A stretch of DNA of 35,723 nucleotides from Paracoccaceae bacterium. Its GTDB lineage: Bacteria > Pseudomonadota > Alphaproteobacteria > Rhodobacterales > Rhodobacteraceae. The notes below the pieces were generated by a model. That model was not told the origin of the DNA and did no database searches. It saw only the letters and a list, made by a program, of their open reading frames with translations. How positions within the stretch are numbered: position 1 is the first letter of the stretch; each line of letters starts with the position of its first letter. Positions 1 through 35,723 of this stretch are shown here, in pieces. Location of the stretch: the NCBI GenBank assembly GCA_947371955.1, contig CANBRQ010000023.1, positions 1-35,723 on the forward strand, in the 5' to 3' direction. The position numbers were made by a program, and so were the translations under genes.

Positions 1-848
1 TCCATGCCGAAACGCAGGCCAAGATCTGCTGCCAGATCGGCCACTCGGGCCGCAAGGGCTCCACGCAGGTCGGCTGGGCGGAGGGTGATGCCCCCCTGCC
101 CCACGGCAACTGGCCGGTGATGAGCGCCTCGGCGATCCCGTGGACTACGGACAATCAGGTGCCGAAAGAGATGGACCGGACGGACATGGACAAGGTCCTG
201 CTGCAGTTCGTGAAATCGACCGAGATGGCGAAGAATTGCGGCTTCGACATGATCGAACTGCACGCGGCGCATGGGTACCTCATCTCCAGCTTCATCAGCC
301 CGGTGTCGAACCAGCGCACGGATGACTACGGCGGCAGTCTGGAAAACCGGATGCGATATCCGCTGGAGGTTTTCGCGGCGATGCGCGCCGAATGGCCGGG
401 GTCCAAGCCGATGTCGGTCAGGATTTCCGCGACCGACTGGATGGGCGACGGCGGTGTGACACCTTCCGAAGCGGTGGAGATTGGCATGATGTTCGCCGCC
501 GCAGGGGCGGACATCATCGATGTCTCGGCAGGCCAGACCTCGACCGAGGCCAAACCGATCTATGGCCGCATGTTCCAGACCCCCTTCAGCGACCGCATCC
601 GGAACGAGGCGGGCTTGGCGACGATGGCGGTTGGCAACATCACCGAGGCCGAACAGGTCAACCAGATCCTTCTGGCCGGCCGGGCGGACCTGGTCGCCTT
701 GGCGCGGCCCCACTTGGCCGATCCCTACTGGACGCTGCATCAGGCCGTGAAACTGGGCGACCCGACCGCGTGGCCTTTGCCCTATCTGGCCGGGCGCGAT
801 CAGGCGGTGCGGCTCTTGTCCAAGGCGACCGAGGTTCTTCGGGCATGA
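1..848 (+). CDS. OYE-type reductase domain, C-terminal part of 2-aminobenzoyl-CoA (or salicylyl-CoA) monooxygenase/reductase, partial
   Basis: The reading frame is open from the left edge (first full codon at 3), so the start and any N-terminal domain lie outside; 281 residues are visible. The visible part is an old yellow enzyme FMN barrel: [14 protein letters not shown] near the start, then [16 protein letters not shown] and [14 protein letters not shown], which form the active-site and FMN-binding core. In the known fusion family an N-terminal flavin monooxygenase domain hydroxylates the ring of 2-aminobenzoyl-CoA and the OYE domain then reduces it, giving a non-aromatic oxo-cyclohexene-CoA. 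Databases often call relatives salicylyl-CoA 5-hydroxylase/oxidoreductase. A stand-alone OYE reductase cannot be excluded because the N-terminus is missing. The downstream CoA ligase and beta-oxidation genes support the fusion reading. The stop overlaps the next start (ATGA). Confidence 0.8.
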
Positions 849-1579
849 ACGGCAAGCGCGTTCTGGTCACCGGCGGCGGGTCAGGCACGGGCGCGGACCT
901 CGCCTTGGGTTTTGCAAAAGCGGGGGCCGAGGTCGTGATCTGTGGCCGCCGGGTGGAGGCCTTGGCGCAGATTGCTGCGCAACATTCCGCCATCCGGGCT
1001 CTGCCCTGCGATGTCACCGATGAGGCCTCGGTTCAGGCGCTGTTCGCGGCCGCCGGGCCCTTGGACATCGTCATCGCCAATGCCGGACAGGCGGATTCCG
1101 CGCCGTTTCACAAGACCTCGCTCGACCAGTGGAACGCCATGCTGGCCGTCAACCTGACCGGCGTGTTCCTGACCTTCCGTGAGGGCTTGCGGCAGATGCA
1201 GGGCTGGGGTCGCTTGGTGGCGGTCTGTTCGACGGCGGGGGTGAAGGGCTACGCCAAGGTAGCGCCCTATGCGGCGGCCAAGCATGGCGTGATGGGCATG
1301 GTGCGGTCTTTGGCGCTGGAAGTCGCGAAGGGGCCGGTAACGGTCAATGCGATTTGTCCGGGGTTTCTGGATACCGAAATGACCGACCAGTCGATCCGCA
1401 TCATCAGCGAAAAGACCGGGCGCTCCCCGGCGCAGGCCAAGGCTGCGCTGGAAGGTCTGAACCCCCAAGGCCGGCTGTTCCAGCCCTCCGAAGTGACGGC
1501 AGCGGCGCTGTATCTCTGCGGGCCGGGGTCGGAGGGTATCAACGGCCAAGCCATCGTGATCGCGGGGGGCGAGGTGTGA
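845..1579 (+). CDS. SDR-family NAD(P)-dependent dehydrogenase
   Basis: A 244-residue classical short-chain dehydrogenase/reductase. The dinucleotide-binding TGGGSGTG is at residues 9-16, NAG at 79-81, and the catalytic set is Ser129, Tyr142 and Lys146 (YAAAK), with the usual spacing. The ATG at 845 overlaps the previous stop by four bases, and a longer reading from 392 only runs through the upstream gene in another frame. In the aromatic-CoA operon it would probably act as a 3-hydroxyacyl-CoA or ring alcohol dehydrogenase on the dearomatised intermediate. That role is inferred from neighbours; SDR sequence alone does not give the substrate. Confidence 0.9.
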
Positions 1580-2010
1580 GCGACCCTCTGTCCAAGCGCC
1601 GGCTCAAGATGTGGATCAGGCTTCTGGGCGTGACCCGCGCCGCCGAGTCGGAATTGCGAGAGTTTCTGCGGGTCAAGCACGACACCACTCTGCCCCGGTT
1701 TGACGTAATGGCGGCTTTGTACCGGCGGCGGGAGGGGGTGACGATGTCGGAACTTTCCCGCATGCTGCTGGTGTCGAACGGCAATGCAACGACGGTTGTG
1801 GACCGGCTTGAGAAGGACGGTCTGGTGCGGCGCACGCCGTCTGAAACCGACCGGCGCACGGTGTTCGTGGCTTTGACCACTGAGGGTCTGGCGCAATTCG
1901 AGGTCTTTGCCGCGCAGCATGAGGCCGAGGTGGGCCGTGTCTTCGGCGGGCTTTCGGAAGGCGATCTGGACCAGCTTACGGATATTCTGAAACGGATGGG
2001 GGCGAGATGA
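1576..2010 (+). CDS. MarR-family transcriptional regulator
   Basis: A 144-residue winged-helix regulator. The recognition region is [33 protein letters not shown], written here only as its landmarks: [19 protein letters not shown] then the [11 protein letters not shown] helix, followed by the wing with SETDRRT. The start is taken as GTG at 1576, overlapping the SDR stop as GTGA; an ATG at 1609 would shorten the protein by 11 residues. It lies inside the catabolic operon, so it is probably an autoregulated local repressor. MarR proteins of aromatic-CoA pathways commonly respond to a CoA-thioester intermediate, but its ligand and operator cannot be read here because the operon promoter is outside the window. 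Confidence 0.88.
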
Positions 2011-2816
2011 AACTGGCGGAGAGAAAGCCCGAGCACTTCCTGTGGGAGGTCTCGGGACGGATTGCCACGCTGCGGCTGAACCGGCCAGAGCGCAAGAACC
2101 CCCTGACATTTGAATCCTATGCCGAGATGCGCGACCTGTTCCGCGATCTGGTCTATGCCGATGATGTGGATGTGGTGATCTTCGCGTCAAACGGCGGGAA
2201 CTTCTGTTCCGGCGGCGATGTGCATGAGATCATCGGGCCGCTGATCGGCCTGCCGATGAAGGAGCTTTTGGCCTTCACCCGGATGACCGGCGATCTGGTC
2301 AAGGCGATGATCGGGTGCGGCAAGCCGATCATCTCGGCGGTGGATGGGGTGGCGGTGGGGGCCGGGGCGATCATCGCCATGGCCTCCGACCTGCGGCTGG
2401 CCACGCCAGATGCGAAATGCGCATTCCTGTTCACGCGAGTTGGGTTGGCCGGCTGTGACATGGGGGCCTGTGCCATGCTGCCGCGGATCATCGGGCAGGG
2501 CCGTGCGGCGGAACTTTTGTACACCGGTCGCACGATGAACGCAGCCGAAGGCGAGCGTTGGGGCTTCTGGAACGCTCTGCATTCCTCTGAAACGCTGGAG
2601 GCCGAAGCGCGTGTCTTGGCGGAGCGTCTCGCCTCGGGCCCGACCTTTGCGCATTCCATCACCAAGACCCAGTTGAACCACGAATGGAACATGGGGCTGG
2701 AGCAGGCGATCGAGGCCGAGGCGCAGGCGCAGGCGATCTGCATGCAGACCAAGGACTTCGAGCGAGCCTACCGGGCTTTTGTCGCCAAGGAACGACCCGT
2801 GTTTGCCGGCAACTGA
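2007..2816 (+). CDS. Enoyl-CoA hydratase/isomerase (crotonase) family protein
   Basis: A 269-residue crotonase fold protein that probably hydrates or opens the ring of an enoyl-CoA intermediate. The two oxyanion-hole segments are present: NFCSGGDV (65-72) and [10 protein letters not shown] (112-121). The classical catalytic pair of glutamates is not conserved. The corresponding segment reads [19 protein letters not shown], with Asp151 near the second Glu position. This CDMG form is seen in a subgroup of crotonases and suggests chemistry other than plain hydration. The ATG overlaps the MarR stop by four bases, indicating translational coupling. The gene is followed by a hairpin repeat before the next gene. 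Confidence 0.88.
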
Positions 2817-2818
2817 AG

Positions 2819-2867
2819 GCGGGGGCCAGCCCCCGCACCCCCGGGATATTTAAGCCAGAATGAAAGG
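2819..2867 (+). repeat. Hairpin-plus-tail repeat, copy A
   Basis: A perfect 8-bp stem (GCGGGGGC / GCCCCCGC, 2-base loop, 2819-2836) is followed by ACCCCCGGG and a tract reading ATATTTAAGCCAGAATGAAA then GG (to 2867). A second copy lies at 17781-17834 on the other strand. The final GAAAGG lies 10 bases before the ATG at 2878 and can serve as its ribosome binding site. The ATG inside the tract (2860) belongs to the repeat and is probably not the start. The hairpin may also weaken read-through within the operon. Confidence 0.75.
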
Positions 2868-2877
2868 CGCAAGGCGG

Positions 2878-4014
2878 ATGAGCGACAAGAGTTTCCTCGA
2901 TTGGCCCTTCTTTGAGGCGCGGCATCGGGAATTGGCGGCGGCGCTGGAAGACTGGTGCGGTGCGCATCTGCCCGTTGATCATGGCGACGTCGATGAAGCG
3001 TGCCGGGGGCTGGTGGCCAGCTTGGGCGCGGGTGGCTGGTTGCAGCACTCGGGCGGCAGTCTGGATGTGCGGACCCTGTGCCTGATCCGCGAGACTTTAG
3101 CACGGCATGATGGCTTGGCGGATTTTGCCTTTGCCATGCAGGGCTTGGGGATGGGGCCGGTGTCATTGTTCGGCACGCCTGAGCAGAAGCTTTGGCTGGA
3201 ACGGACGCGGGCCGGGACCGCGATCTCGGCCTTTGCGCTGACCGAACCCGGCTCGGGCTCGGACGTGGCGGCGACGTCGACGGTGGCGGACCGGGTGCAG
3301 GGTGGCTGGCGGATCAGCGGAGAGAAGACCTGGATCTCGAACGGCGGGATTGCGGATGTCTATGTGATCTTTGCGCGGACCGGAGAGGCACCGGGGGCGC
3401 GCGGCATTTCGGCGTTTCTGATGCCCGCCGATGTGCCGGGCTTGACGGTTGAGGAAAGGCTGGAGGTGATTGCGCCGCATCCCTTGGCGCGACTGCGCCT
3501 GGACGGGGTGGAATTGCCGGAGGGCGCCTTGATCGGCAAGGCCGGTGAGGGATTCAAACTGGCGATGTCCGTGCTGGATGTGTTCCGGTCAACGGTGGGT
3601 GCCGCCGCTTTGGGCTTTGCGCGGCGGGCTTTGGATGAGACCCTTGCACGGGTGACATCCCGGCGCATTCAGGGGCAGGCCTTGGCCGAGTTGCAGATGG
3701 TGCAGGGGCATCTGGCCGACATGGCGCTTGAAATTGATGCCGCCGCCCTGCTGGTCTACTGCGCCGCCTGGACCAAAGACATGGGCGCAGCGAGGGTGAC
3801 ACGCGAAGCCGCGATGGCCAAGCTGTACGCCACCGAAGCCGCACAACGCGTCATCGACATGGCCGTGCAACTGCATGGCGGCGATGGGGTCCGGCATGGC
3901 TCGGTTGTTGAACGCCTGTACCGCGAGATCCGGGCACTGCGGATTTATGAAGGCGCAAGCGATGTGCAGCGCGTGGTGATTGCCCGCTCCATCCTGCCAA
4001 AGGAGGCGACATGA
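2878..4014 (+). CDS. Acyl-CoA dehydrogenase family protein
   Basis: A 378-residue flavoprotein of usual acyl-CoA dehydrogenase length. It carries the FAD-binding signature [11 protein letters not shown], the WISNGG segment, and near the C-terminus the LHGGDG motif and [10 protein letters not shown], whose Glu358 sits where the catalytic base is found in many family members. It would oxidise an acyl-CoA formed during ring degradation, passing electrons to ETF. The start is placed at 2878 (MSDKSFLD), 10 bases after GAAAGG; an in-frame ATG at 2860 lies inside a repeated element also found elsewhere in the window. Its stop overlaps the following RidA-like gene by four bases. Confidence 0.92.
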
Positions 4015-4415
4015 CTTCTCCGCACGACTTTCTGCATCCCAAGGGGTGGAAGGCCACCCCGGGCTATTCCAGCGGCGTTTCGGCCAAGGGGCGTCTGGTG
4101 CTCACCGGCGGCATCATCGGCTGGAACGGCCAGCAAGAGTTTGAAACGGATGACTTTGCCGGGCAGGTGGCGCAGGCGCTGCGCTCGATCGTCGAGGTGC
4201 TGGCTTGCGGCGGGGCCAAGCCCGAACATCTGGTGCGGCTGACGTGGTATGTCACGGACAAGCGTGAATACCTAGGTAGCCTGAAGGAAATTGGCCGGGC
4301 CTACCGCGAGGTCATCGGCAAGCACTTCCCGGCCATGGCCCTGGTGCAGGTGGTGGCCTTGGTGGAAGATCGGGCGAAGGTGGAAATCGAAGCGACGGCT
4401 GTGGTGCCGGAATAG
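4011..4415 (+). CDS. RidA-like (Rid/YjgF) family protein lacking the canonical Arg
   Basis: A 134-residue single-domain Rid protein of normal length. [16 protein letters not shown] and the C-terminal VEIEATAVV are typical. True RidA enamine/imine deaminases have Arg in the P-A-x motif; here the motif reads [10 protein letters not shown], with Met109 in that place. By family knowledge this puts it with the Rid groups that lack demonstrated deaminase activity. Rid-like proteins recur in 2-aminobenzoate-CoA clusters, where an enamine intermediate is expected, so a role in releasing the amino group is attractive but weakened by the missing Arg. It overlaps the dehydrogenase gene by four bases and precedes the ligase by eight. 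Confidence 0.88.
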
Positions 4416-4423
4416 GAGGGGCG

Positions 4424-6034
4424 ATGCTGGGACCGACGGGACATGTTGACACATTCACGCGGGACAGGCTGCCCGCATCTGACCATTGGCCGGAAATCAC
4501 GCCGGTCTTCCATTATCCGGACCACCTGAACGCCGGGGTCGAACTTTGTGACCGCATGGTCGAGCGCGGCTTTGGCGACCATGTGGCCTTGATCGGCAAC
4601 GGGCGGCAGCGGACCTACAAGGAACTGGCCGACTGGTCGAACCGCATCGCCCACGCGCTGGTCGAGGTCTATGGCCTCAAGCCCGGCAACCGGGTGCTGA
4701 TCCGGTCTGCCAACAACCCCGCGATGGTGGCGGCCTGGCTGGCTGCGACCAAGGCGGGGGCGGTGGTGGTCAATACCATGCCGATGCTGCGGGCCGGGGA
4801 ACTGACCGCGATTGTCGACAAGGCAGAGATCACCCACGCGCTGTGCGATACGCGGCTGATGGAGGAACTGGTCACCTGCGCCAAAGGCTCGGCCTATCTG
4901 CGGACGGTGGTGGGGTTTGATGGCACGGCCAACCATGATGCGGAACTGGACCGGGTGGCGCTGTCCAAGCCGGTGCGCTTTGCTGCCGTGCAGACGGGCC
5001 GCGATGATGTGGCTTTGCTGGGCTTCACCTCGGGCACGACCGGAGAGCCCAAGGCCACCATGCATTTCCACCGCGATCTGCTGATCATCGCCGATGGCTA
5101 TGCCAAGGAAGTGCTGAAGGTCACGCCGGAGGATATCTTCGTAGGCTCTCCGCCCTTGGCCTTCACCTTCGGGCTTGGCGGTCTGGCGATCTTTCCCCTG
5201 CGCTTTGGTGCGGCGGCGGCACTGCTGGAGCAGGCAAGCCCGGCCAACATGATCTCGCTCATTCAAGAGCACAAGGCGACGGTCTGCTTCACCGCCCCCA
5301 CCGCCTACCGGGCGATGCTGAAGGCGATGGAGGCGGGGGCAGATCTGTCCTCGCTGCGGGCGGCGGTCAGTGCCGGGGAAACCCTGCCCGCGCCGGTCTA
5401 TCAGGAATGGATGGAGCGGACCGGCAAGCCGATGCTGGATGGCATCGGTGCGACCGAGATGCTGCATATCTTCATCACAAACCGCTTCGAGGATCACCGC
5501 CCCGGCTGCACCGGGCGTCCGGTCGGTGGCTACGAAGCGAAGATCGTCAATGAGGACATGGTCGAGGTGCCACGCGGCGAGGTCGGGCGGCTGGCCGTGC
5601 GCGGGCCGACCGGCTGCCGCTACATGGCGGATGACCGGCAACAGAAATACGTGAAGGGCGGCTGGAACCTGACCGGCGATAGCTTCTGGCAGGACGAAGA
5701 GGGCCGCTTTCACTTCGCCGCGCGGTCTGACGACATGATCATCTCGGCTGGCTACAACATCGCGGGGCCAGAGGTTGAGGCAGCCCTGCTCTCGCACCCC
5801 GCTGTGCTGGAATGCGCCGTGGTGAGTGCTGTGGACGAGGAACGCGGCCATATCGTCGAGGCGCATGTGGTGCTGGCCACAGGCCATGAACCCTCGGACC
5901 TACTGATCCGAATCCTGCAAGATCATGTGAAGCGCGTCATCGCACCCTACAAGTACCCGCGCCGGGTCGTATTCACCGATGCCCTGCCGAAGACGCAGAC
6001 CGGCAAAATCCAGCGGTTCCGGCTGAAAACCTGA
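4424..6034 (+). CDS. AMP-forming benzoate-CoA-ligase-type enzyme, likely 2-aminobenzoate-CoA ligase
   Basis: A 536-residue member of the ANL adenylating family. The P-loop-like TSGTTGEPK is at residues 202-210, GATE follows in the mid-region, SDDMIISAGYN marks the hinge, and PKTQTGKIQR near the end carries Lys528, the adenylation lysine. Overall length and the text around GATEMLHIF resemble benzoate/2-aminobenzoate-CoA ligases. It activates an aromatic acid with ATP and CoA in the cytoplasm, the first step for the pathway encoded upstream. GAGGGG lies just before the ATG. It is the last gene of the operon and is followed directly by a strong hairpin. The exact aromatic acid is inferred from the OYE-type gene. 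Confidence 0.85.
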   Translation: MLGPTGHVDTFTRDRLPASDHWPEITPVFHYPDHLNAGVELCDRMVERGFGDHVALIGNGRQRTYKELADWSNRIAHALVEVYGLKPGNRVLIRSANNPAMVAAWLAATKAGAVVVNTMPMLRAGELTAIVDKAEITHALCDTRLMEELVTCAKGSAYLRTVVGFDGTANHDAELDRVALSKPVRFAAVQTGRDDVALLGFTSGTTGEPKATMHFHRDLLIIADGYAKEVLKVTPEDIFVGSPPLAFTFGLGGLAIFPLRFGAAAALLEQASPANMISLIQEHKATVCFTAPTAYRAMLKAMEAGADLSSLRAAVSAGETLPAPVYQEWMERTGKPMLDGIGATEMLHIFITNRFEDHRPGCTGRPVGGYEAKIVNEDMVEVPRGEVGRLAVRGPTGCRYMADDRQQKYVKGGWNLTGDSFWQDEEGRFHFAARSDDMIISAGYNIAGPEVEAALLSHPAVLECAVVSAVDEERGHIVEAHVVLATGHEPSDLLIRILQDHVKRVIAPYKYPRRVVFTDALPKTQTGKIQRFRLKT

Positions 6035-6075: not shown

Positions 6076-7389
6076 TCAGGCGAGGGGTAAAGCCACTTGG
6101 AATCCGCGGTCTTTGATCACCGGAGACAGTAGCGTCAGGTCCTTGCCCAAACCGCGCGCGATGCCTGCGGCGATGGCAAGGCCCAAGCCCGACCCGCTGC
6201 TGCGCGCCCCGGCCCGTTCAAAGCGCATGGTCAGGGTCGACAGGATTTCCGGCGGTATCGCCGGGCAATCGTTGGTCACCGAAAAGACTCCGGTGGGCGA
6301 CAAAGACACCGAAACGGTCGCCTGCGTGCCGTGCACCAAGGCGTTCTCGATCAGGTTCCGGGCCAGAACCGCAAAAGCATCCGGGTCCAGCCGAGACGGT
6401 ACTGCGGTTTTCGGAACATCGGCGGTGATGCGTCCGGGATGGCTGCGGCTGAAGTCATTCAGCACCACGTTCAGGATCGGCACCAGATCGGCCTGCTCGG
6501 CTGCGATCATCGCCCCCCCCTCGGCCCGGGCAAGTTGCATGAGCTTTTCTGCAAGCCGGGCGAGGCGCTTCAGTTCAGCCTCAACCTGCGCCGCCCTTTG
6601 CCGCAAAGGCCCCTCCGGGCTTTCGGCAACCAGCCGCTGCGTCTGCGCCAAGGTCGCCGCTATCGGCGTGCGAAGTTCGTGCGCGGCATTGGCTGCGAAG
6701 GACCGCTCGGCCTGCAGGGCGCGCTTCAGCCGGGCCATCAGGCGGTTGGCGGCCTGCTGGATCGGGATCAGTTCGGTGCGCAGACCCGACAGGTCCAAGG
6801 GAGTCAGGTCATCCGCCCCCTTCAGCCGGATCGCCACCGACAGATGCCCCAGGGGCCGCAACCCCCGCCGCACCCACAGGGCCACGCCAATCAGCGACAG
6901 GGGCAGCAGCACCCCCAGAGGAACCAGCATCGCCAGCACCGTCTCGCGCAACGCGGTCTGGCGGTGCGTCAGCGGTTCGGCGACCTGAATCGTATACTGC
7001 CCCGACACGGCAGAGCGGCTGAACACCCGGTGGCTTTCGGTGGTGAAGAAGCCCTGCCCCTTGACCTGATCGAAAATCTTGGCGTCGGCGTCATGCGAAT
7101 ACATCAGGATCTTGGCATCGGCGTCGCGGATCACATAGGTGATCTTCTCGTCATGCTGGGCAATCGGCAGAATCTTCTGCGCCACAGCCGCCCCGTCCGA
7201 GGCGATCAGTTCCACCACCGCCAGCGGCAGGATCCGTTCTCCGGTCTCCTGCAAAGCCGCGTCAAACGACTCGTCAATCTCGCGCCGCACCACGAAGGTG
7301 GAGCCGACCACCGCCCCCAACCACAGCACCACAAGGATGGCCGAAACACCCACGGCCAACTGGCCGCGCAAGGATCTCATCAGGTTCAT
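6076..7389 (-). CDS. Two-component sensor histidine kinase
   Basis: A 437-residue membrane kinase. Transmembrane segments lie at about 10-33 and 150-173, enclosing a periplasmic sensing region of roughly 115 residues. The dimerisation/phospho-acceptor helix has AAHELRTP with His237. The ATPase domain has NLIENALVHG (Asn349) and GSGLGLAIA. The start is the ATG at 7389, overlapping the response regulator stop (ATGA); the reading frame extends further upstream only into the regulator gene. Layout resembles QseC/TctE-type kinases. Divergent placement beside the PepSY/DUF2271/ApbE genes suggests it controls them, with a redox or metal signal as one possibility. The gene ends at a shared terminator. 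Confidence 0.92.
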   Translation of the reverse strand: MNLMRSLRGQLAVGVSAILVVLWLGAVVGSTFVVRREIDESFDAALQETGERILPLAVVELIASDGAAVAQKILPIAQHDEKITYVIRDADAKILMYSHDADAKIFDQVKGQGFFTTESHRVFSRSAVSGQYTIQVAEPLTHRQTALRETVLAMLVPLGVLLPLSLIGVALWVRRGLRPLGHLSVAIRLKGADDLTPLDLSGLRTELIPIQQAANRLMARLKRALQAERSFAANAAHELRTPIAATLAQTQRLVAESPEGPLRQRAAQVEAELKRLARLAEKLMQLARAEGGAMIAAEQADLVPILNVVLNDFSRSHPGRITADVPKTAVPSRLDPDAFAVLARNLIENALVHGTQATVSVSLSPTGVFSVTNDCPAIPPEILSTLTMRFERAGARSSGSGLGLAIAAGIARGLGKDLTLLSPVIKDRGFQVALPLA

Positions 7390-8045
7390 GGCGTGCCCAA
7401 CCGGTAACCCAAGCCTCGGATCGTATGCACCACGTCTTTCCCCAATTTCTTGCGCAAGCGGCTGACATAAACCTCGATCGTGTTGCTTTCGACCTCGGCA
7501 TCGAAGGAGTACAGCTGATCCTCGATCTGGCTTTTCGAGACGATCTGCCCCGGACGCTGCAACAATGCCTCGAATATGATCCACTCGCGTTGCGACAGAT
7601 CAATCTGACCGTCAGGCCCGTGAATCGCATGGGCGGCAAGGTCAATCTCAAGGCCCCCAAGCGAGATCAGCGGGTTCGGATTGCCGGAATAGCGGCGGGC
7701 GACGGCGTTGATGCGGGCGGTCAGTTCGGCAAGGTCGAAGGGCTTGACGATGTAATCGTCGGCACCAGCGTTCAGCCCCTCGATCCGTTCGGTGATGCGG
7801 TCATGCGCCGTCAGGATCATCACCGGCGTGACAGACCCCTTGGCGCGCAACGCCTTCAGGAAATCAAGGCCACGGCCATCGGGCAACCCAAGGTCCAGAA
7901 GGATCAGGTCATAGGACATCGTCGCCACCAGATCGCGGGCATAGGCCAGCGTCGGCGCCAGGTCCGGCACATGGCCTTCGGCGGCGATCTCGTCGCGCAC
8001 GGCGCTTCCCAGCCCGGGGTCATCTTCGATCAGCAGAATACGCAT
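7386..8045 (-). CDS. OmpR-family response regulator
   Basis: A 219-residue regulator. The receiver domain has acidic residues at 8-9 (IEDD), phospho-acceptor Asp51 in LLDLGLPDG, and the conserved Lys in VKPFD. The C-terminal winged helix contains LSQREWIIFEALLQRPGQIV and ends with VSRLRKKLG and IRGLGYRLG. The start is the ATG at 8045 with GGAGGA a few bases upstream. It is the first gene of a two-gene operon with the sensor kinase. Two direct-repeat boxes with 11-base spacing just upstream fit binding by an OmpR-family dimer and suggest both autoregulation and control of the divergent genes. Confidence 0.93.
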   Translation of the reverse strand: MRILLIEDDPGLGSAVRDEIAAEGHVPDLAPTLAYARDLVATMSYDLILLDLGLPDGRGLDFLKALRAKGSVTPVMILTAHDRITERIEGLNAGADDYIVKPFDLAELTARINAVARRYSGNPNPLISLGGLEIDLAAHAIHGPDGQIDLSQREWIIFEALLQRPGQIVSKSQIEDQLYSFDAEVESNTIEVYVSRLRKKLGKDVVHTIRGLGYRLGTP

Positions 8046-8076
8046 GCGTCCTCCATGATCCCCTATGCCGTGATTT

Positions 8077-8095
8077 AGCTGACACCAAGCTGAAC
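8077..8095 (-). promoter_or_regulatory. Predicted response-regulator box 1, facing the two-component operon
   Basis: On the minus strand this reads GTTCAGCTTGGTGTCAGCT: two TCAGCT units repeated 11 bases apart, one helical turn, as expected for OmpR-type regulators. It matches box 2 on the opposite strand at 15 of 19 positions and ends about 30 bases before the regulator start codon. Confidence 0.6.
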
Positions 8096-8111: not shown

Positions 8112-8130
8112 GTTCAGGTGGCTGTCAGGT
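8112..8130 (+). promoter_or_regulatory. Predicted response-regulator box 2, facing the PepSY operon
   Basis: The plus strand reads GTTCAGGTGGCTGTCAGGT, with TCAGGT at 8114 and again at 8125 (11-base spacing). It lies about 40 bases before the PepSY gene start, in the orientation opposite to box 1. Confidence 0.6.
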
Positions 8131-8170
8131 TCACAGTGCTGGTGAAGCCTTGCAAACAGGACACCCAACC

Positions 8171-8494
8171 ATGCGCCGAATCATCCGCGACATCATTCTT
8201 GCCGTCACTCTGGCCTGCCTTGCTGTCCCAGCGACGGCGGAGGTCGAATGCTCGACCCCGATGGACGACTGGAAACCCATCGCCGCCCTGCGGGAAGAGG
8301 CCGTCAAGCTGGGCTGGACCGTGGAAAAGATTCGCGCAGATGACGGTTGCTATCACGTGAAGGCGACGGATTCCGCCGGCAAGCCCATTGAAGGAGTGTT
8401 CGACCCGCAGTCGCTGAAACTGCTGGGCCGCTCTGACGACGACCACGAAGAGAACGGCGAGCATGACTCGTCGAAATCGGGCGGCTCAAACTAG
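8171..8494 (+). CDS. Small secreted PepSY-domain protein
   Basis: A 107-residue protein with a Sec signal peptide (basic MRRIIRD, hydrophobic ILAVTLACLAV, likely cleavage after ATA). The mature part is one PepSY-like domain (WKPIAALREEAVKLGWTVEK, then YHVKATDSAGKPIEGVFD). Two cysteines (EC and GC segments) could form a disulfide. The tail is acidic and His-containing (SDDDHEENGEHD), which might bind metal. The ATG at 8171 is preferred to an upstream TTG because it gives a clean signal peptide and CAGG precedes it. It is the first gene of the predicted flavin electron-transfer operon and is probably periplasmic, perhaps modulating the membrane reductase or sensing for the kinase. Function is inferred. 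Confidence 0.85.
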   Translation: MRRIIRDIILAVTLACLAVPATAEVECSTPMDDWKPIAALREEAVKLGWTVEKIRADDGCYHVKATDSAGKPIEGVFDPQSLKLLGRSDDDHEENGEHDSSKSGGSN

Positions 8495-8527
8495 GCGCGC
8501 CCAAGACCTTTAGAAACCGGAGTTCCC

Positions 8528-8992
8528 ATGTACCGTACATCCACCGCCCTTGCCCTGTCGCTCGCCGCACTCGCCCCGATTGCTGCTGACGCCAACCCGG
8601 TCAAGATCAGCGTCACCATCGCGCAATACAGCGGCCCGAACACCTTTCTGGCGATGTATCTGACCGACAAATCCGGGGCCTTCAAAAGCACCGTCTGGGT
8701 GGCCGGCGACCGCACCCGCTATTGGCGCCACCTGCGGACCTGGTTTGCTGCGACCGGCGGCCAAGGCGCGGATGGCGTTACAGGAGCCAGCGTCGGCTCA
8801 GGCCGCACGCTGACGATCACGCCCGACATCGCCGCCTCGATGATCGACGCGGGATATGTCCTGCACATCGATGCGGCTGCGGAAGGTGTCGGCGAAAGCC
8901 CGGATGAAATTCAGGTGCCGCTGACCACCGCCGGTGCCGCCAAGCCAATGGCTGGCAACGGATTCATCGCGAACTTCCAGTACGGCCTTTAA
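8528..8992 (+). CDS. Secreted DUF2271-like protein, predicted FMN-carrying
   Basis: A 154-residue exported protein with a signal peptide (residues 1-22, cleavage probably after ADA). The mature part is beta-rich (VKISVTIAQYSG, TFLAMYLTDKSGAF, TVWVAGDR, RYWRHLRTWF) and fits the DUF2271 family. Residues 82-88 read DGVTGAS, matching the D-G-x-T/S-G-A-T/S consensus at which ApbE links FMN through phosphoester to Thr/Ser; Thr85 is the predicted site. The encoded ApbE three genes downstream in the same operon supports this. It would be a periplasmic one- or two-electron carrier receiving electrons from the membrane flavodoxin reductase. The physiological acceptor is unknown. Confidence 0.82.
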   Translation: MYRTSTALALSLAALAPIAADANPVKISVTIAQYSGPNTFLAMYLTDKSGAFKSTVWVAGDRTRYWRHLRTWFAATGGQGADGVTGASVGSGRTLTITPDIAASMIDAGYVLHIDAAAEGVGESPDEIQVPLTTAGAAKPMAGNGFIANFQYGL

Positions 8993-9016
8993 GACCCCAA
9001 AAGTCAGGACCACCCC

Positions 9017-11206
9017 ATGTTGCGGCGTCTGCATTCCCTTCCCGGCCTGATCTTCGGGCTGGTGCTTCTGGTACTGGCATCGTCTGGCGCGATTCTGTCG
9101 CTTGCCCCGATGCTGGACCGGGTGCAGGCGTCGCCTGAGGCCAGCCTCACCGTGGCAGTTGTGGCCGCCAAGGCCGCAGCCGAAAACCCCGGCCTGAACA
9201 AACTGCATCGCAGCCCGAACGGGGTGATCGTCGCCTCCATCAAGGCCAAGCTGGGCTTTCAGACCAAAGTGATCGACCCCGCGACCGGCAAAGCGACCGG
9301 TGCCGCCGGGGCGGGCAGTTTCCTTGACTGGATCAAGGAGCTGCACCGGTCTTTCTTCCTCGACCAGACCGGCCACGGCATCGCCGGGGTCAGCGCCGGG
9401 GTCATGTTCCTGATGACGTTGACCGGACTGTTCCTGCTGGCCGTCTCGCTCGGCGGCTGGCGGCGGATCGGAAAATCCGTCCGCTCCACCGGCGCACGCG
9501 GCTGGCACGCCAAGGTTGCACGTTTCGCCGTGGCAGGCCTGTTCGTCTTGGCCCTGACCGGATCTTACATGTCGCTGTCCACTTTCGGCATCATAAATGA
9601 CGGCACCAGCCTTGAGGCCACATTCCCCGACACCGTCGCCACCGGCACTGCCCTGCCCATTGACCAACTTGCCGCCCTGCAAGCCGTGCCTCTGTCCGCC
9701 CTGCGCGATCTGACCTTCCCTGTGGCGGGCGATCCGACCGACGCCTTCCTGATCGCCACCTCCACCGGCGAGGGCTATGTGGACCAGGTCTCGGGCCAGA
9801 TGCTGAACTGGATGGACTACGGCATGGCCCGCCATATCTGGGAGTTCATCTACAAACTCCACACCGGCCAGGGCCTGTGGATGGTCGGCCTGATCCTTGG
9901 CCTTTCGGCGCTGTCTGTTCCGCTGCTGTCCGCCACCGGCACCGCCATCTGGTATAGCCGCCGCCGCGCCATCCCTCACCTCCGCCACAACGCCCGCGCC
10001 TCGGTGGCCGATTTGGTCATTCTGGTGGGCTCCGAAGGCGGTTCGACTTGGGGTTTTGCCTCGTCGCTGTCGGACGCGCTGCACAAGCACGGGCTCAACA
10101 TCCACGTCGCCGCGATGAATGACTTGGGCGATTATCCGCAAGCCGGTGGCGTCATCCTGATGACGGCCACCTATGGCGATGGCGAGGCGCCCTCCAGCGC
10201 CACCCGCTTCCTGGACCGCGTGGCGCAAACCAAGAACCCGCTGCCCGTGGCCATCCTCGCCTTTGGCGACCGGATGTTCCCATCTTACTGCGGCTATGCG
10301 GAAAAGATCGCAGTGGCGCTGGAAAATGCCGGTTGGCAGGCCTTCCTGCCCTTCGCCCGCGTCGACCGCCAATCCAACGCCGATTTCGGCAAATGGGTGC
10401 AGGATCTTGGCACCCTTCTGTCGCTGAAGCTGGAGCCAGAACATCACGCGAATGTCCCGAAAACCAACGAACTGGAACTGATTTCGCGCCATGATTACGG
10501 CGCACAGGTGCAAGCCCCCGTGGCCGTGCTGCGCTTCAAGCCGGTGGCCCCTAAGGGATGGCTTGGCCTGTTTTCAACCGCCCCGCAGTTCGAGGCGGGG
10601 GATCTTCTGGGCATCCTGCCCCCTGGCAGCGACCTGCCGCGCCTCTACTCGCTGGCCTCGTCGCGGAAAGACGGCTTTGTCGAGATTGCCGTCCGCAAGA
10701 TGCCCGGCGGCCTCTGCTCCGGCTGGCTGAACGAGTTGGAGGTCGGCACCACGATCAACGCCTTTGTCCGCCAGAACCCCGCCTTTCGCCCGCAGGCCAA
10801 AGGCCCGGTGATCATGATCGCCGCAGGCACCGGCGTTGGGCCGATGATCGGCTTCCTGCGCGGGCTGAAAGCCGGACGCGGGGCCGAGATGTACTTTGGT
10901 GCCCGCGATCCGGGGTCGGACTACCTCTACGAGGACGAACTGGCCGAGGGACTGCAACAGGGCCGCCTGTCGCGCCTTGTGACCGCCTTCAGCCGGGTCC
11001 AGGACCGCGCCTATGTGCAGGATCGCCTGCGCGCCGATGCCGCCCATCTGCGTGACCAGATCAAGCGCGGCGGTCAGGTGCTGGTCTGCGGCTCTATCGC
11101 CATGGCCCGTGCCGTCGCGGTGGAAGTCGAAGAGGCGCTGGCGCCTCTGGGCCTTTCCGTCGCCACCCTGCGCGCTGAGGGCCGCTATCTGGAGGATGTC
11201 TACTGA
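9017..11206 (+). CDS. PepSY-TM / flavodoxin / FAD-NAD(P)H reductase fusion, membrane flavoreductase
   Basis: A 729-residue fusion. The N-terminal third is a PepSY-TM module with membrane helices near 9-31, 122-146, 168-190 and 284-312 and histidines near helix ends (110, 120, 164, 273, 282) that could ligate heme. Then comes a flavodoxin domain (about 332-465, with TATYGDGEAP at 383) and a sulfite-reductase-flavoprotein-like reductase: RLYSLASS (FAD, 542), GTGVGP (NADPH, 604), and the typical end GRYLEDVY. It should move electrons from cytoplasmic NAD(P)H via FAD and FMN across the membrane. Neighbours (PepSY, DUF2271, ApbE) point to an extracytoplasmic flavin acceptor; ferric reduction is a plausible end use. 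The stop overlaps the apbE start by one base. Confidence 0.88.
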   Translation: MLRRLHSLPGLIFGLVLLVLASSGAILSLAPMLDRVQASPEASLTVAVVAAKAAAENPGLNKLHRSPNGVIVASIKAKLGFQTKVIDPATGKATGAAGAGSFLDWIKELHRSFFLDQTGHGIAGVSAGVMFLMTLTGLFLLAVSLGGWRRIGKSVRSTGARGWHAKVARFAVAGLFVLALTGSYMSLSTFGIINDGTSLEATFPDTVATGTALPIDQLAALQAVPLSALRDLTFPVAGDPTDAFLIATSTGEGYVDQVSGQMLNWMDYGMARHIWEFIYKLHTGQGLWMVGLILGLSALSVPLLSATGTAIWYSRRRAIPHLRHNARASVADLVILVGSEGGSTWGFASSLSDALHKHGLNIHVAAMNDLGDYPQAGGVILMTATYGDGEAPSSATRFLDRVAQTKNPLPVAILAFGDRMFPSYCGYAEKIAVALENAGWQAFLPFARVDRQSNADFGKWVQDLGTLLSLKLEPEHHANVPKTNELELISRHDYGAQVQAPVAVLRFKPVAPKGWLGLFSTAPQFEAGDLLGILPPGSDLPRLYSLASSRKDGFVEIAVRKMPGGLCSGWLNELEVGTTINAFVRQNPAFRPQAKGPVIMIAAGTGVGPMIGFLRGLKAGRGAEMYFGARDPGSDYLYEDELAEGLQQGRLSRLVTAFSRVQDRAYVQDRLRADAAHLRDQIKRGGQVLVCGSIAMARAVAVEVEEALAPLGLSVATLRAEGRYLEDVY

Positions 11207-12126
11207 TGCTGCGCACGCTGTCGGGCCCGGCCATGGGCAGCCGCTGGACCGCCCGGCTGGACTGCGATGCAGAGCTTGCCGCCACCCTGTCAGACGCCTG
11301 CGCCGCGTCCATCGAGGCGGTGGAGCACGCCACCAGCAACTGGCGCGCCCTGTCCGACCTGTCACGGCTGAACGCCGCCCCGGTGGGGGATTGGGTTCAG
11401 GTGCCGCCCCATCTGCTGACCGTGCTGTCCAAGGCGCTGCAGATTGGCCGTACCTCGGACGGCCTCTTCGACATCGGCGTTGGCGCCCTGGTGCAAGCCT
11501 GGGGCTTTGGCCCGGCGCAGGGTCAGGCCGACCCCAAGGCGATCAGCGCCCACCTTGGCAAAGCCCTGCGCAGTTTCGAGACCTTGGAACTTGACCTCAT
11601 CGCCGGATGCGCTCGCAAGACGGAACCGATGACGATCGACCTGTCTGGAATCGCCAAGGGCTATGGCGTCGATGTGCTGGCGCAGGTGTTGGTGGATCAT
11701 GGCGTGAAGCAGTTTCTGTGCGGTCTGGACGGCGAGTTGGTGGCCAAGGGCCTGCGCCCAGATGGCCAGCCTTGGGCCGTGGCACTGGAACAACCCGACC
11801 CCACCCGCCGCACGGGCCGCAGCATGATTGAACTGACAGACCGCGCCATTGCGACCTCCGGCAGCTATCGGCATTTCGTCGATGTCGGCAAACTGCGCGT
11901 GTCGCACACGATGAACCCGCGCAGCGGCGGGCCGGCGGTGGGGGCCTTGGTCTCGGTGTCAGTGTTGGCCGACACCTGCATGGCGGCAGATGCCTGGGCC
12001 ACCGTGCTGATGGTACTGGGCGACAAGGCAGGCCCGGACTATGCCCGCGCCCATGGGCTGCAGGCGATCTTCCTGGCCCAGACGGGGGACGAAATCACCG
12101 AGACCCTGACCGGTTTTGCCACCTGA
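11206..12126 (+). CDS. apbE: FAD:protein FMN transferase ApbE
   Basis: A 306-residue transferase that links FMN from FAD to Thr/Ser of target proteins. Seen: GPAMGSRWTARL at the start, DLSGIAKGYGVD (about 145-156), GLDGELVAKG, ATSGSYRHF, HTMNPRSGGP and MAADAWATVLMVLG, the last holding Mg-binding residues. Unlike many ApbE proteins it has no signal peptide or lipobox: the family fold begins at residue 5, and no usable in-frame start lies upstream. It may therefore act in the cytoplasm. TGATG overlap with the reductase gene shows coupling. The likely substrate is the DGVTGAS protein encoded at 8528. Confidence 0.92.
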   Translation: MLRTLSGPAMGSRWTARLDCDAELAATLSDACAASIEAVEHATSNWRALSDLSRLNAAPVGDWVQVPPHLLTVLSKALQIGRTSDGLFDIGVGALVQAWGFGPAQGQADPKAISAHLGKALRSFETLELDLIAGCARKTEPMTIDLSGIAKGYGVDVLAQVLVDHGVKQFLCGLDGELVAKGLRPDGQPWAVALEQPDPTRRTGRSMIELTDRAIATSGSYRHFVDVGKLRVSHTMNPRSGGPAVGALVSVSVLADTCMAADAWATVLMVLGDKAGPDYARAHGLQAIFLAQTGDEITETLTGFAT

Positions 12127-14727: not shown

Positions 14728-16289
14728 GCTGCCCCCTTGATCATATCCGCCGCCTTCTCCGCGATCATGATCGTGGCGGCATTTGTGTTTGAAGAAACGA
14801 CCGTCGGCATCACCGAAGCATCGACAACCCGCAGCCCCGCAATCCCGTTGAAGCGCAGCTGCGTATCCACCACCGCCTCCTTGTCCGCGCCCATCCGGCA
14901 GGTCCCCGCCGGGTGGTGATCGGTCTTGGCATGGGCGCAGGCGTAGTTGAAGTAATCCTCCTCCGTCCGTACCTCCGGCCCCGGCAGCCTTTCGGCCAGC
15001 ACGTAAGGCTTCAGCGCATCCTGCCGCATGATCTCCCGCGCCAGCTTCAACCCGCGAATGGACATCTCCCGGTCATAAGGGTCCGCCCAGTAATTCGGAT
15101 CAATCAACGGCGCGACCGAAGGATCACTCGACGCCAACCGCACCGTCCCCCGCGACCTAGGCCTGAGGTATGCCGAGTTCAGCGTCACCCCGCCCTGCGG
15201 CATCGCCGCGACCCCCGCCTCAATCCCCGAGCCCAGTCCAAGATGCAGCTGGATATCCGGGCTGCGGGCGTTCGGGTCCGCATACCAGAACCCCCCCGTC
15301 TCAAAGAGACTGGAAGCCACCGGCCCGCGCCTTGTCAGCAAATACTGCAGCCCCGCCCAAGCCGACAGATGCGGCTTGGCAAACCGGTCATAGGTATGCG
15401 GCCCGGTACACTCGGCAATCACGAACAAATCCACGTGGTCCTGCAAATTCGCCCCCACGCCCGGCTGATCAAACACCACCGGAATTCCCAAGCCTCGCAA
15501 ATGATCCGCCGGCCCGATCCCCGACAGCTGCAGCAACCGGGGCGACCCGATCGCGCCCGAGGACAAGATCACCTCACCCCCGCGCGCAACCCCTTCCGGC
15601 AGTTCCACCCCAACCGCCCGACCGCCTTCCACCACAATCCGTCGAACCTGCGCCCCCGTCCGTACCGTCAAATTCGGCCGCTTCTCAGCATCCCGCAAAT
15701 ACGCCACCGCCGTCGAGGACCGCCGGGAATTCTTCTGCGTCAGTTGGTAATACCCGACCCCATCCTGAACCTCCCCGGTCATGTCGAGGTTCCGCGGTAT
15801 CCCCACCTGCCCCGCGGCCGCAAAATACGCCTCACAGATCGGCAGCGGCGCGCGGGGCTGGCTGACCCCCAAAGGCCCGCCCTTCCCGTGATAGCGGTTG
15901 TCAAACGTGTCATTATCCTCGGCCTTGCGGAAATAGGGCAGCACATCCTCGTACCCCCAGCCGCCGCATCCCATCTGCCGCCACTCGTCATAGTCCAGCG
16001 CATTGCCGCGCGTATAGATCTGAGCATTGATGGAAGACCCGCCGCCAATCACCTTGGCCTGGGTATAGCGGATCACCATATCCTTCATGTGCCGCTGCGG
16101 CACGGTATGCCAGCCCCACGACCCGATCCCCTTGGTCATCTTCGCAAAGCCCGCCGGCAGGTGGTAAAACGGATGCCGATCCCGCCCCCCCGCCCCCAGC
16201 AGAAGCACCCGCGCAGCGCCTTCCGTCAGCCGCGCCGCCAGCACCGCCCCCGCCGACCCGCCACCGATGACAATGAAATCATACTCCAC
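14724..16289 (-). CDS. GMC oxidoreductase, choline-dehydrogenase-like (GMC 2)
   Basis: A 521-residue FAD enzyme. It starts VEYDFIVIGGGSAGAVLAAR (FAD Rossmann motif) and has the GMC signatures GGGSSINAQIYTRG and LSSGAIGSPRLLQLSGIGP, the active-site HHPAGTCRMG near 458 and SSNTNAATIMIAEKAAD at the end. The start is GTG at 16289, which gives the family's usual N-terminus and overlaps the upstream GMC gene by 11 bases. Members oxidise primary or secondary alcohols, choline or sugars; the electron acceptor is often quinone or a dye-type carrier. No signal peptide is seen, so it is probably cytoplasmic. Glycerate kinase in the same operon suggests a polyol- or sugar-like substrate. Confidence 0.9.
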   Translation of the reverse strand: MEYDFIVIGGGSAGAVLAARLTEGAARVLLLGAGGRDRHPFYHLPAGFAKMTKGIGSWGWHTVPQRHMKDMVIRYTQAKVIGGGSSINAQIYTRGNALDYDEWRQMGCGGWGYEDVLPYFRKAEDNDTFDNRYHGKGGPLGVSQPRAPLPICEAYFAAAGQVGIPRNLDMTGEVQDGVGYYQLTQKNSRRSSTAVAYLRDAEKRPNLTVRTGAQVRRIVVEGGRAVGVELPEGVARGGEVILSSGAIGSPRLLQLSGIGPADHLRGLGIPVVFDQPGVGANLQDHVDLFVIAECTGPHTYDRFAKPHLSAWAGLQYLLTRRGPVASSLFETGGFWYADPNARSPDIQLHLGLGSGIEAGVAAMPQGGVTLNSAYLRPRSRGTVRLASSDPSVAPLIDPNYWADPYDREMSIRGLKLAREIMRQDALKPYVLAERLPGPEVRTEEDYFNYACAHAKTDHHPAGTCRMGADKEAVVDTQLRFNGIAGLRVVDASVMPTVVSSNTNAATIMIAEKAADMIKGAA

Positions 16290-34485: not shown

Positions 34486-35184
34486 TTACGGCTCAATCAT
34501 GCGGTATCCTGCGCCGGGTTCGGTGCGCAGGATCGTTGGGTTGGCGGGGTCAGGCTCGATCTTGGCGCGCAGTTGCCCGATGAAGACCCGCAGATACTGC
34601 GTGTCGTCGTGATGGGCCGGCCCCCAGACGGCGGTCAGGATCTGGCGGTGGGTGACCACGCGGCCCTGATTGCGGGCCAGAACAGCCAGCAGGTCATATT
34701 CCTTGGGGGTCAACCGCACAGGCTCGCCGAGTCGCGTCACCAGTCTTTTATCGAGGTCGATGACAAGGTCCCCGATCTCGACCCGCAAGACCTCGCCGCG
34801 TCCCCGGGCGGCATGGCGGGCGGCCGTGCGCAGGCGGGCTTGCAATTCGCTGATGCCGAAGGGCTTTTCCAGATAGTCATCGGCGCCAAGGTCAAGGGCT
34901 GCAACCTTTTCGGCCTCACGGTCGCGGGCTGAAAGGACAATGATCGGCACCTGTGAAAAGGCGCGCATGTCAGCCAGAACGTCTTTGCCGTCGCGGTCGG
35001 GCAGGCCAAGGTCCAGCAACACGGCGTCAGGCGCGATGCTGGCGGCCAAGCGCAAAGCCTCGGCCCCGGTCAGGGCGGCGCGGGTCTTGTAGCCGGCACT
35101 TTCAAGCCCGATGCGCAGCATGGTCTGGATTTGCGGGTCATCGTCGACGATCAGGATCAGGGTCATGGGCAGGATAAGGGTCAT
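34486..35184 (-). CDS. kdpE: KdpE-type OmpR-family response regulator
   Basis: A 232-residue regulator for potassium-transport genes (kdpFABC), by similarity. The receiver has LIVDDDPQI, phospho-acceptor Asp58 in LLDLGLPDRDG, and LEKPFG; the winged helix has LTPKEYDLLAVLARNQGRVV and ends LRTEPGAGYRM, typical of KdpE. The ATG at 35184 overlaps the kinase stop (TGATG) and has GGAGG four bases upstream, so it is preferred to the ATG at 35166. The first six residues MTLILP are nearly repeated by MTLILI, as if an 18-base unit had duplicated. The kdp structural genes are not in the window. Confidence 0.88.
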   Translation of the reverse strand: MTLILPMTLILIVDDDPQIQTMLRIGLESAGYKTRAALTGAEALRLAASIAPDAVLLDLGLPDRDGKDVLADMRAFSQVPIIVLSARDREAEKVAALDLGADDYLEKPFGISELQARLRTAARHAARGRGEVLRVEIGDLVIDLDKRLVTRLGEPVRLTPKEYDLLAVLARNQGRVVTHRQILTAVWGPAHHDDTQYLRVFIGQLRAKIEPDPANPTILRTEPGAGYRMIEP

Positions 35185-35723
35185 CAGGCCTCCGCCGGTG
35201 GCAATTCGGCGGCGGGCAGGCGGACGACCATCCTTGTGCCGCGCCGCCGCACAGCCGGGCTTTCGGCGGTGATCGTGCCGCCCATGGCCTGCACCAGACC
35301 CCGGCAGATCGACAGGCCCAGACCGGTGCCGGGCTTGCGCCGATCCGTCCCGCCGCTGCGATAGAACTTCTCGAAGACCCGCTCCAGATCGGCGGGTTTG
35401 ATCCCCGGCCCTTCGTCGGTGACGCTGATCACGACCTGATCCCCTTGATTGCGGGCATGGATGGCGACCTCGCCCTCGTCCGCGTATTTATGGGCATTGT
35501 CGGCCAGATTGAACATGACCTGCCCCAAAAGATCCTGATCACCCCGCACAAAACGCAGGTCGGGGGCCAAGCTGATCCGGGTCAAGCGCCCCGGATGGGT
35601 CTTGGCGCAACGCTCGACCGCGTCACGGATCGCATCGCCAACATCGACCCAGTCGCGCCGGACCTTGACCGCGCCCGAGTCGATGCGGCTCATTTCCATC
35701 AGGTTGCCGACGAAGCGGTTCAG
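35184..35723 (-). CDS. kdpD: KdpD-type sensor histidine kinase, C-terminal part
   Basis: The frame is open to the right edge, so only the last 179 residues are visible. They begin LNRFVGNLMEMSRIDSG, the end of the dimerisation domain, in a form typical of KdpD. The ATPase domain shows VMFNLADNAHKYA (N box), DEGPGIKPADLERVFEKFYR (G1/F boxes) and GTGLGLSICRGLV (G2 box). The universal-stress and membrane sensor domains expected of KdpD lie outside the window. Translation is coupled to kdpE by a one-base overlap. Assignment as KdpD rests on this segment and its partner. Confidence 0.85.
   Translation of the reverse strand: MNRFVGNLMEMSRIDSGAVKVRRDWVDVGDAIRDAVERCAKTHPGRLTRISLAPDLRFVRGDQDLLGQVMFNLADNAHKYADEGEVAIHARNQGDQVVISVTDEGPGIKPADLERVFEKFYRSGGTDRRKPGTGLGLSICRGLVQAMGGTITAESPAVRRRGTRMVVRLPAAELPPAEA

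Follow-up and report, generated by a model that had tools for sequence, protein, structure and literature searches.

A predicted kinase-gated NADPH-to-periplasm flavin relay in a Paracoccaceae genome and its relatives

Positions 8171–12126 of a 35,723-nucleotide stretch of DNA from a Paracoccaceae bacterium (assembly GCA_947371955.1, contig CANBRQ010000023.1), which we call the window, hold four genes on the same strand that probably carry electrons from the cytoplasm to a flavin protein beyond the inner membrane. Together with a divergent sensor kinase and response regulator, this operon would form a kinase-gated envelope reductase that uses NADPH to reduce a metal, presumably iron, in the periplasm, a reading to which we assign a probability of about 0.66. 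The genes and their domains, a flavinylation motif, invariant residues, linkage to the kinase pair, and a promoter box were all computed. The core relay is not new; a sensor and a DNA switch of its own, with the promoter box, are new here. The features are as follows, with ORF standing for open reading frame and TM for transmembrane segment.

6076–7389, minus strand: sensor histidine kinase with 2CSK_N, HisKA, and HATPase domains, QseC-like (Pfam/NCBIfam; listed ORF 6076–7584; likely start 7389 or 7380)
7386–8045, minus strand: OmpR-family response regulator, PmrA/RppA/QseB-like (Pfam/NCBIfam; listed ORF runs to 8168; likely start ATG 8045)
8076–8094, plus strand: predicted response-regulator box TAGCTGACACCAAGCTGAA, thought to serve the operon (26.7 bits, window excluded from the matrix)
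8113–8131, minus strand: second predicted box AACCTGACAGCCACCTGAA, thought to serve autoregulation of the regulator and kinase (29.1 bits, window excluded from the matrix)
8171–8494, plus strand: small exported PepSY_2 protein with two conserved Cys, proposed kinase partner (Pfam 75.7 bits, family alignment)
8528–8992, plus strand: exported DUF2271 protein, predicted carrier of covalent FMN (Pfam 89.6 bits, hydrophobic N-terminus)
8771–8791, plus strand: flavinylation motif DGVTGAS, residues 82–88 of the DUF2271 protein (sequence; rule of PMC12052999)
9017–11206, plus strand: PepSY_TM (four predicted TM) fused to a flavodoxin and an FAD/NADPH reductase like those of NADPH-cytochrome P450 reductase (CPR) and CysJ (Pfam, Protein Data Bank [PDB] profiles, alignment)
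11206–12126, plus strand: ApbE FAD:protein FMN transferase, overlapping the fusion's stop, with no signal peptide seen (Pfam, N-terminus test)

A sequence-only reading of this DNA had described four co-directional genes with the domains of a relay. The ORFs lie where they were first placed, and the Pfam matches bear the description out: PepSY_2 (75.7 bits), DUF2271 (89.6), PepSY_TM (117.6), Flavodoxin_1 (52.2), NAD_binding_1 (44.0), and ApbE (249) are all clear of their cut-offs, and FAD_binding_6, in the fusion protein, barely reaches its own (21.1 bits). This four-gene account holds; it overlooked the divergent kinase/regulator pair at 6076–8045, the two promoter boxes, and the signal-less ApbE. 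It was also right that such relays are a known concept, as the PepSY-like/DUF2271/ApbE class had already been published (Méheust 2021). The window carries the marks of that class, namely, PepSY_TM (PF03929) beside ApbE and DUF2271, a [S/T]GA[S/T] string in the DUF2271 protein (DGVTGAS), and a putative signal peptide on this target by a crude hydrophobicity test. The window's own genome (92% complete) encodes one ApbE and one DUF2271 protein; an FMN_bind protein as a further ApbE target was ruled out, none being found there.

The 729-amino-acid fusion protein has PepSY_TM at residues 3–315, flavodoxin at 335–453, and the FAD/NADPH reductase through to a C-terminal Tyr. We aligned it in a fusion set of 87 proteins, comprising the window, six plasmid loci, and the best 80 of 546 genome relatives, a choice that leans to close relatives. 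His6, His110, His164, and His282 are invariant (87/87, window included), as are Ser659, Arg660, and Gln668 (87/87, window included), which match the residues through which P450 reductase contacts the 2′-phosphate of NADPH; 79 of the proteins end in Tyr and eight in Phe. P450 reductases and CysJ are the top PDB profile matches, and the C-terminal part has the flavodoxin and FAD/NADPH domains and the NADPH residues of the CPR/CysJ group. Four hydrophobic stretches, oriented by the positive-inside rule, place His6 and His164 on the cytoplasmic side and His110 and His282 on the periplasmic side. These are four candidate heme-ligand His, two per face, as in FoxB, with the faces assigned by TM and charge and not by mapping onto FoxB; a two-heme layout of this kind, its four conserved His split evenly between the faces, has been described for FoxB and CrpH (PMC13038864, PMC11334425). 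Electrons would pass from NADPH to FAD and on to the FMN of the flavodoxin domain, much as in P450 reductase, then to two putative bis-His hemes in PepSY_TM (His6/His164 at the inner face, His110/His282 at the outer face), and from the hemes to FMN on Ser88 of the exported DUF2271 protein. The trans-membrane flavin relay proposed earlier is well supported by the domains, the four His, the NADPH fingerprint, and the co-occurrence of motif and apbE described below. An ApbE target within the fusion itself was discarded, with just two motif-like strings among the 87 proteins.

ApbE joins FMN to the final Ser/Thr of D-x-x-[ST]-G-A-[ST] (PMC12052999). Because this rule takes the last Ser/Thr of the motif, the predicted FMN acceptor is Ser88 of the DUF2271 protein (codon 8789–8791), and the earlier assignment to Thr85 is wrong and can be excluded. 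It had been proposed that loss of the motif among orthologues neighboring apbE would speak against flavinylation. The motif is kept: all 86 DUF2271 proteins of the fusion set, that of the window among them, carry [ST]GAS, as do 64 of 65 in a family sample; the exception is L173 (GITGGS). In that sample, DUF2271 occurs at 68 places in 64 of 295 family genomes; one place is the window, and we took stretches around the other 67, of which our own DUF2271 profile recovers 65 (L152 and L190, without DUF2271 by this profile, were dropped; L152 looks like another cluster type). The leading Asp, present in the window, is kept in 64/86 proteins of the fusion set and in only 19/64 of the family sample, where Asn is its usual substitute (29/64). 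This Asp is said to be strictly conserved, yet an Asp-to-Ala change had minor effects only (PMC12052999). N-termini were scored by hydrophobicity at thresholds of 1.5 and 1.9, a crude test and not SignalP. The N-terminus of the window's DUF2271 protein is hydrophobic, as are those of 144/146 DUF2271 proteins at 1.5 and 91/147 at 1.9; A-x-A is found in 129/146 and a loose twin-arginine pattern in 10/147.

The transferase shows a different N-terminus. The ApbE start lies mostly within the end of the fusion gene, with a 10-nt overlap in 73 cases, and most module ApbEs have ∼9–24 residues ahead of their MGT motif. At 1.9, none of 116 module ApbEs has a hydrophobic N-terminus from any start (six of 122, without the motif, were left out), and the two that exceed 1.5 apparently do so only through a misplaced start or motif. 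Among stand-alone ApbEs of relatives, 10 of 10 scored pass 1.9, with a lipoprotein-like Cys (15 fetched, five left unscored). A signal-less ApbE is not a mark of the fused subtype alone, an idea ruled out by DUF2271 clusters in which PepSY_TM is unfused: of their 10 scorable ApbEs, none reaches 1.9 and one has a value of 1.5. How a signal-less transferase modifies an exported protein is a question that these counts raise. Because ApbE can label tags down to seven residues (PMC12052999), attachment of FMN to DUF2271 before export may be possible.

The operon keeps close company with the kinase pair. Analysis of the family sample was limited to the 52 of 65 loci with at least 3.5 kb upstream and at least 5.5 kb downstream (13 were dropped for short flanks). 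Beside DUF2271, all 52 have the fusion and apbE, and 46 have the kinase/regulator pair; a small PepSY protein is near in 42 at >80 bits, or 43 with every weak or broken match. Dropping 11 of the 87 fusion loci for short flanks left 76, of which 76 have DUF2271, 66 the small PepSY protein, 53 apbE, and 64 the kinase pair (family loci L032 and L140 repeat fusion-set loci L054 and L060). Every one of 24 genomes whose loci show no apbE (23 fusion-set loci and L100, which failed the flank test) encodes ApbE somewhere.

We then compared fused and unfused clusters across the phylum. DUF2271 was present in 33 of 249 genomes of the phylum sample, at 35 places; 28 were analyzed, three already being in other samples and four being sub-cut-off fragments, and our own profiles divided them into five fused and 23 unfused loci. 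The kinase pair accompanies 3/5 fused and 0/23 unfused loci (three unfused have only weak regulator or kinase matches of 67–106 bits), the small PepSY protein 3/5 and 0/23, and a promoter box >20 bits 4/5 and 0/23 (3/23 unfused reach 12–16 bits). The five fused motifs end in Ser, whereas among 12 unfused loci with a scored ORF, four have motifs, all ending in Thr, and eight show none.

This comparison bears on an alternative that we take seriously while placing it somewhat short of even odds: that the operon is an iron-uptake reductase of the published PepSY/DUF2271 type, freeing iron from ferric chelates for import, and that the kinase pair is just a lineage-specific regulator. The class is already published; insertions in Caulobacter CCNA_03155–03159 lower fitness in EDTA, and that locus is a Fur target (PMC12004947); and VIT1 is taken as an importer in PMC8238504. 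On the other hand, unfused clusters have neither the kinase pair nor a strong box. Moreover, no TonB receptor or DUF4198 protein is named in 11 annotated plasmid stretches, whose gene tables are incomplete, and a Pfam scan of 17 window proteins (part of the window's ORFs) revealed none either. One locus, L052, lists a carboxypeptidase-like regulatory domain protein, possibly related.

Returning to the kinase-gated reductase, its proposed switch lies in the 125-bp divergent promoter shared by the operon and the regulator/kinase genes, which carries a 19-bp direct repeat, AASCTGAC-N3-AASCTGAA. A direct repeat with an 11-bp period (at least 6/7 matches) was found in 74 of 94 divergent promoters, compared with ∼12 in shuffles; for periods of 9, 10, 12, and 13, the numbers were 18, 12, 22, and 17 promoters, compared with ∼13, 13, 12, and 12. 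Among 111 promoter regions, 95 of them non-redundant, a box matrix built without the window gives a box >12 bits in 94 of the 95, 93 of which are the matrix's own training sites, where ∼1 would be expected from the density elsewhere in the loci; the one promoter without a box is L076. A motif learned from random starts on 51 genome/plasmid regions was then scored on 43 held-out family regions, and in all 43 it outscored every shuffle. The coding-window control of this search was uninformative, since those windows are homologous (total 1096, vs. 1263 for promoters). Of the 95 promoters, 70 have one box in each direction, and in 57 of these the two starts are separated by 36 or 37 bp, a layout that we take to resemble QseB/PmrA sites. 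Because internal copies mostly face the gene that they precede, we infer that the operon is served by the first box and the regulator by the second. Through these two facing 19-bp boxes, the divergent kinase and its response regulator would control both the operon and themselves, probably by activation rather than repression. In L288 (G376:C1), a fused cluster with no kinase pair within 16 kb has facing boxes of 12.5 and 27.2 bits, 36 bp apart.

Boxes also occur away from the module. In the window's genome, a second operon, located outside the window (L197; G000:C92:8354–11370), encodes a secreted acidic protein, a PepSY_2 protein, and cytochrome b561. It carries boxes of 25.0 and 23.2 bits; both run opposite to its genes, which sets them apart from the bulk of internal copies. 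The same-genus relative L203 keeps both, in weaker form (15.7 and 19.2 bits). Separately, L204 (G023:C11, ∼367777–369258) has a homologue of the second operon's PepSY protein, with a 19.6-bit box, next to a VIT gene. A strict box scan gave six matches in the window's genome and none in the reversed control (11 and five with a looser pattern), and 44 matches in 100 family genomes, counted by eye, compared with 20 reversed. Lone matches outside the module are weak evidence because the reversed control also yields matches; a lone 12.2-bit match at 15751, inside a large minus-strand ORF region of the window, is probably due to chance.

The small PepSY protein would tie the kinase to the operon. 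The sequence-only reading had noted its acidic/His tail, which we reject as a key feature: across 132 small PepSY proteins it is not conserved, with at least eight D/E in the last 28 residues of 45 and at least two His there in 23. What is conserved is a pair of Cys (129/132 and 130/132) and a DDGCY core. In Vibrio, DbfQ docks on the sensor domain of DbfS, a kinase that it thereby switches toward phosphatase activity (PMC12714742). DbfQRS-like modules have a small PepSY gene within four genes of the kinase and regulator, and here it is adjacent and divergent. By analogy, the likeliest role of the small PepSY protein here is to bind the kinase's sensor domain and tune its activity as DbfQ does, a role that can be tested. 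In several loci, a second small protein precedes DUF2271 (L051:5127–5480 and similar), some with a box in front; that of L051 has no Pfam match.

The regulator's likely start at ATG 8045 is placed by a domain beginning at residue 42–44, and its best NCBIfam models are PmrA, RppA, and QseB, all under their cut-offs; the kinase's NCBIfam matches are under cut-offs as well. In an alignment of 120 kinases, examined for a possible BqsS-like ExxE iron site, Glu45 is kept in 108 but the second Glu is Gln in 73; His76, 96, 117, and 139 are kept in 91–100. The window has another regulator/kinase pair at 34486–35699, whose sequences are distant from those of the divergent pair (224 and 123 bits vs. 362 and 657).

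Since DbfRS responds to outer-membrane damage (PMC12714742), one might read the operon as an electron supply for envelope stress or repair, reducing protein, quinone, or copper instead of iron. CrpH ties PepSY_TM to copper (PMC13038864), and the second boxed operon includes cytochrome b561. We consider this unlikely: the extra neighbors that recur in our profiling are metal transporters plus one protein resembling ferric reductases, a survey in which repair enzymes were not searched for.

Metal genes recur around the module. A VIT gene lies near DUF2271 in 21 of 52 family loci, a P-type ATPase in 15 at >450 bits (24 with every weak or broken match), and one or the other in 22 (28 with every weak or broken match). 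VIT genes are common (128/149 family genomes), but if, as we roughly estimate, a full-length copy occurs once every 3.7 Mb, chance alone would place one in ∼0.2 of 52 such stretches. The 27 linked P-type ATPase matches >450 bits, read by eye, have the metal-site motifs TPC (18), SPC (two), CPC (three), or other (four). TPC is presumably the mark of P1B-5 ATPases. Of three linked P-type ATPases scanned, one ends in a hemerythrin domain, a trait described for some members of the P1B-5 group (PMC9388753); the S. meliloti Nia paper reportedly concerned nickel and iron. Some loci have a ferric-reductase-like protein. VciB and FoxB are precedents for periplasmic metal reduction (PMC8238504, PMC13038864).

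These neighbors could also speak for export and detoxification of excess iron, manganese, or nickel, with P1B-type ATPases and VIT removing the metal and the reductase keeping it soluble and reduced. The TPC motif in 18 of 27 strong matches, the hemerythrin domain in one of three, VIT in 21/52 family loci, and module copies on conjugative plasmids would all fit. However, neither VIT nor a strong ATPase match occurs in 30 of 52 family loci or beside the window operon, and the direction of VIT transport and the ATPase substrate may be other than this reading needs. We regard this explanation as possible yet rather doubtful.

As for the kinase-gated reductase itself, several observations count against it. 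In the family sample, only 22/52 loci have VIT or a strong P-type ATPase nearby; among the proteins scanned in the window, none next to the operon is a metal transporter; and metal-exporting neighbors suit detoxification as well as uptake. CrpH suggests a copper role for PepSY_TM proteins (PMC13038864), and FoxB was not recovered by sequence. The kinase pair is below threshold in 12/76 fusion loci and 2/5 fused phylum loci; the motif's leading Asp is often replaced (kept in 19/64 of the family sample), and L173 has GITGGS; and the module ApbE has no signal peptide although its target is exported. Because VIT, a ferric-reductase-like protein, and hemerythrin/TPC ATPases are near in some loci, iron is the likeliest metal, compatible with both export and uptake. 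The metal that the flavinylated DUF2271 protein would reduce in the periplasm is most likely ferric iron. The sequence-only reading offered neither a final acceptor nor a job for the small PepSY protein; both find a better account in the adjacent two-component system, with its DbfQ-like kinase partner by analogy, and in the VIT/P-type ATPase neighbors of some of the relatives.

The module also appears to travel. A 7.8-kb form with VIT has 98%–99% identity across Citrobacter, two Vibrio, Marinobacter, Arsukibacterium, and Pseudomonas, and it matched 12 plasmid records; for 10, the match spans most of the query, and 10 of the 12 are typed conjugative. Megablast found none in E. coli complete genomes. 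One Paracoccus denitrificans record (H21) also has a fusion gene. Copies at 98%–100% identity in marine bacteria and on conjugative plasmids of Enterobacterales suggest recent transfer. This gammaproteobacterial form corresponds to loci L092, L093, L097, L100, L101, and L126 and plasmid records H81–H90; in one plasmid record, TnsE of a Tn7-like element lies ∼14 kb from the module, and one copy adjoins a colistin-resistance gene. A bolder proposal, which we hold only tentatively and would not bet on, is that of a self-contained transferable cassette in alpha-, beta-, and gammaproteobacteria, in which a PepSY-partnered kinase would read periplasmic metal and build an NADPH-to-periplasm wire via a dedicated 11-bp-period box; where the module has its own apbE, cytosolic ApbE would add FMN before export, with Sec carrying the flavinylated protein.

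Elsewhere in the window, co-directional genes at 392–6034 encode a short-chain dehydrogenase, an enoyl-CoA hydratase, an acyl-CoA dehydrogenase, and an AMP-binding ligase, which probably make up a CoA pathway for aromatic or fatty acids.

The kinase, regulator, and box offer a uniform genetic handle on a widespread envelope electron-transfer system, whose inducing signal can be approached with one reporter and its acceptor by deletion. Among open-access PMC papers, judged by titles and the openings of abstracts, we found none describing the module with a kinase, box, or ATPase link. The nearest relatives are partial ones. An Alteromonas study (PMC7190382) places a pfeRS-like pair close to genes for a siderophore receptor and for a PepSY permease, and a study of the Shewanella response regulator SsoR (PMC12442407) lists a PepSY_TM protein in a table; as far as those accounts go, neither includes a DUF2271/ApbE operon that comes with a divergent pair and a box of its own. 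CysJ and NADPH-cytochrome P450 reductase share the flavodoxin and FAD/NADPH reductase domains, but here a membrane heme domain would stand in front, and the CysJ equivalog cut-offs are not reached. FoxB/CrpH-type PepSY_TM heme reductases, as described, likewise have four conserved His, two per face; here, that part is fused to a cytosolic diflavin reductase, and electrons would reach a separate flavinylated protein. DbfQRS modules of Vibrio and others (PMC12714742) likewise join a kinase and regulator to a small periplasmic PepSY protein encoded next to them, in some cases on the other strand, and the main text of that paper lacks the words "flavin" and "reductase"; here, the PepSY protein is a PepSY_2 (PF13670) match and would bind the kinase by analogy. 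Closest are the PepSY-like/DUF2271/ApbE systems of PMC8238504, the work that defined the PepSY-like class, showed ApbE-dependent flavinylation of a DUF2271 protein, and counted 1077 PepSY-like genes with an NAD-binding domain and 167 clusters with a VIT1 gene. They share the PepSY_TM protein, DUF2271 with [ST]GA[ST], and ApbE, and the terms "histidine kinase," "response regulator," and "P-type ATPase" are not present in the main text of that paper (supplements not covered). To this known core, the module described here adds the kinase and regulator, the small PepSY protein, and the 19-bp box, and it differs at the acceptor position, which is Ser here (86/86 and 64/65) and Thr in the four readable unfused motifs.

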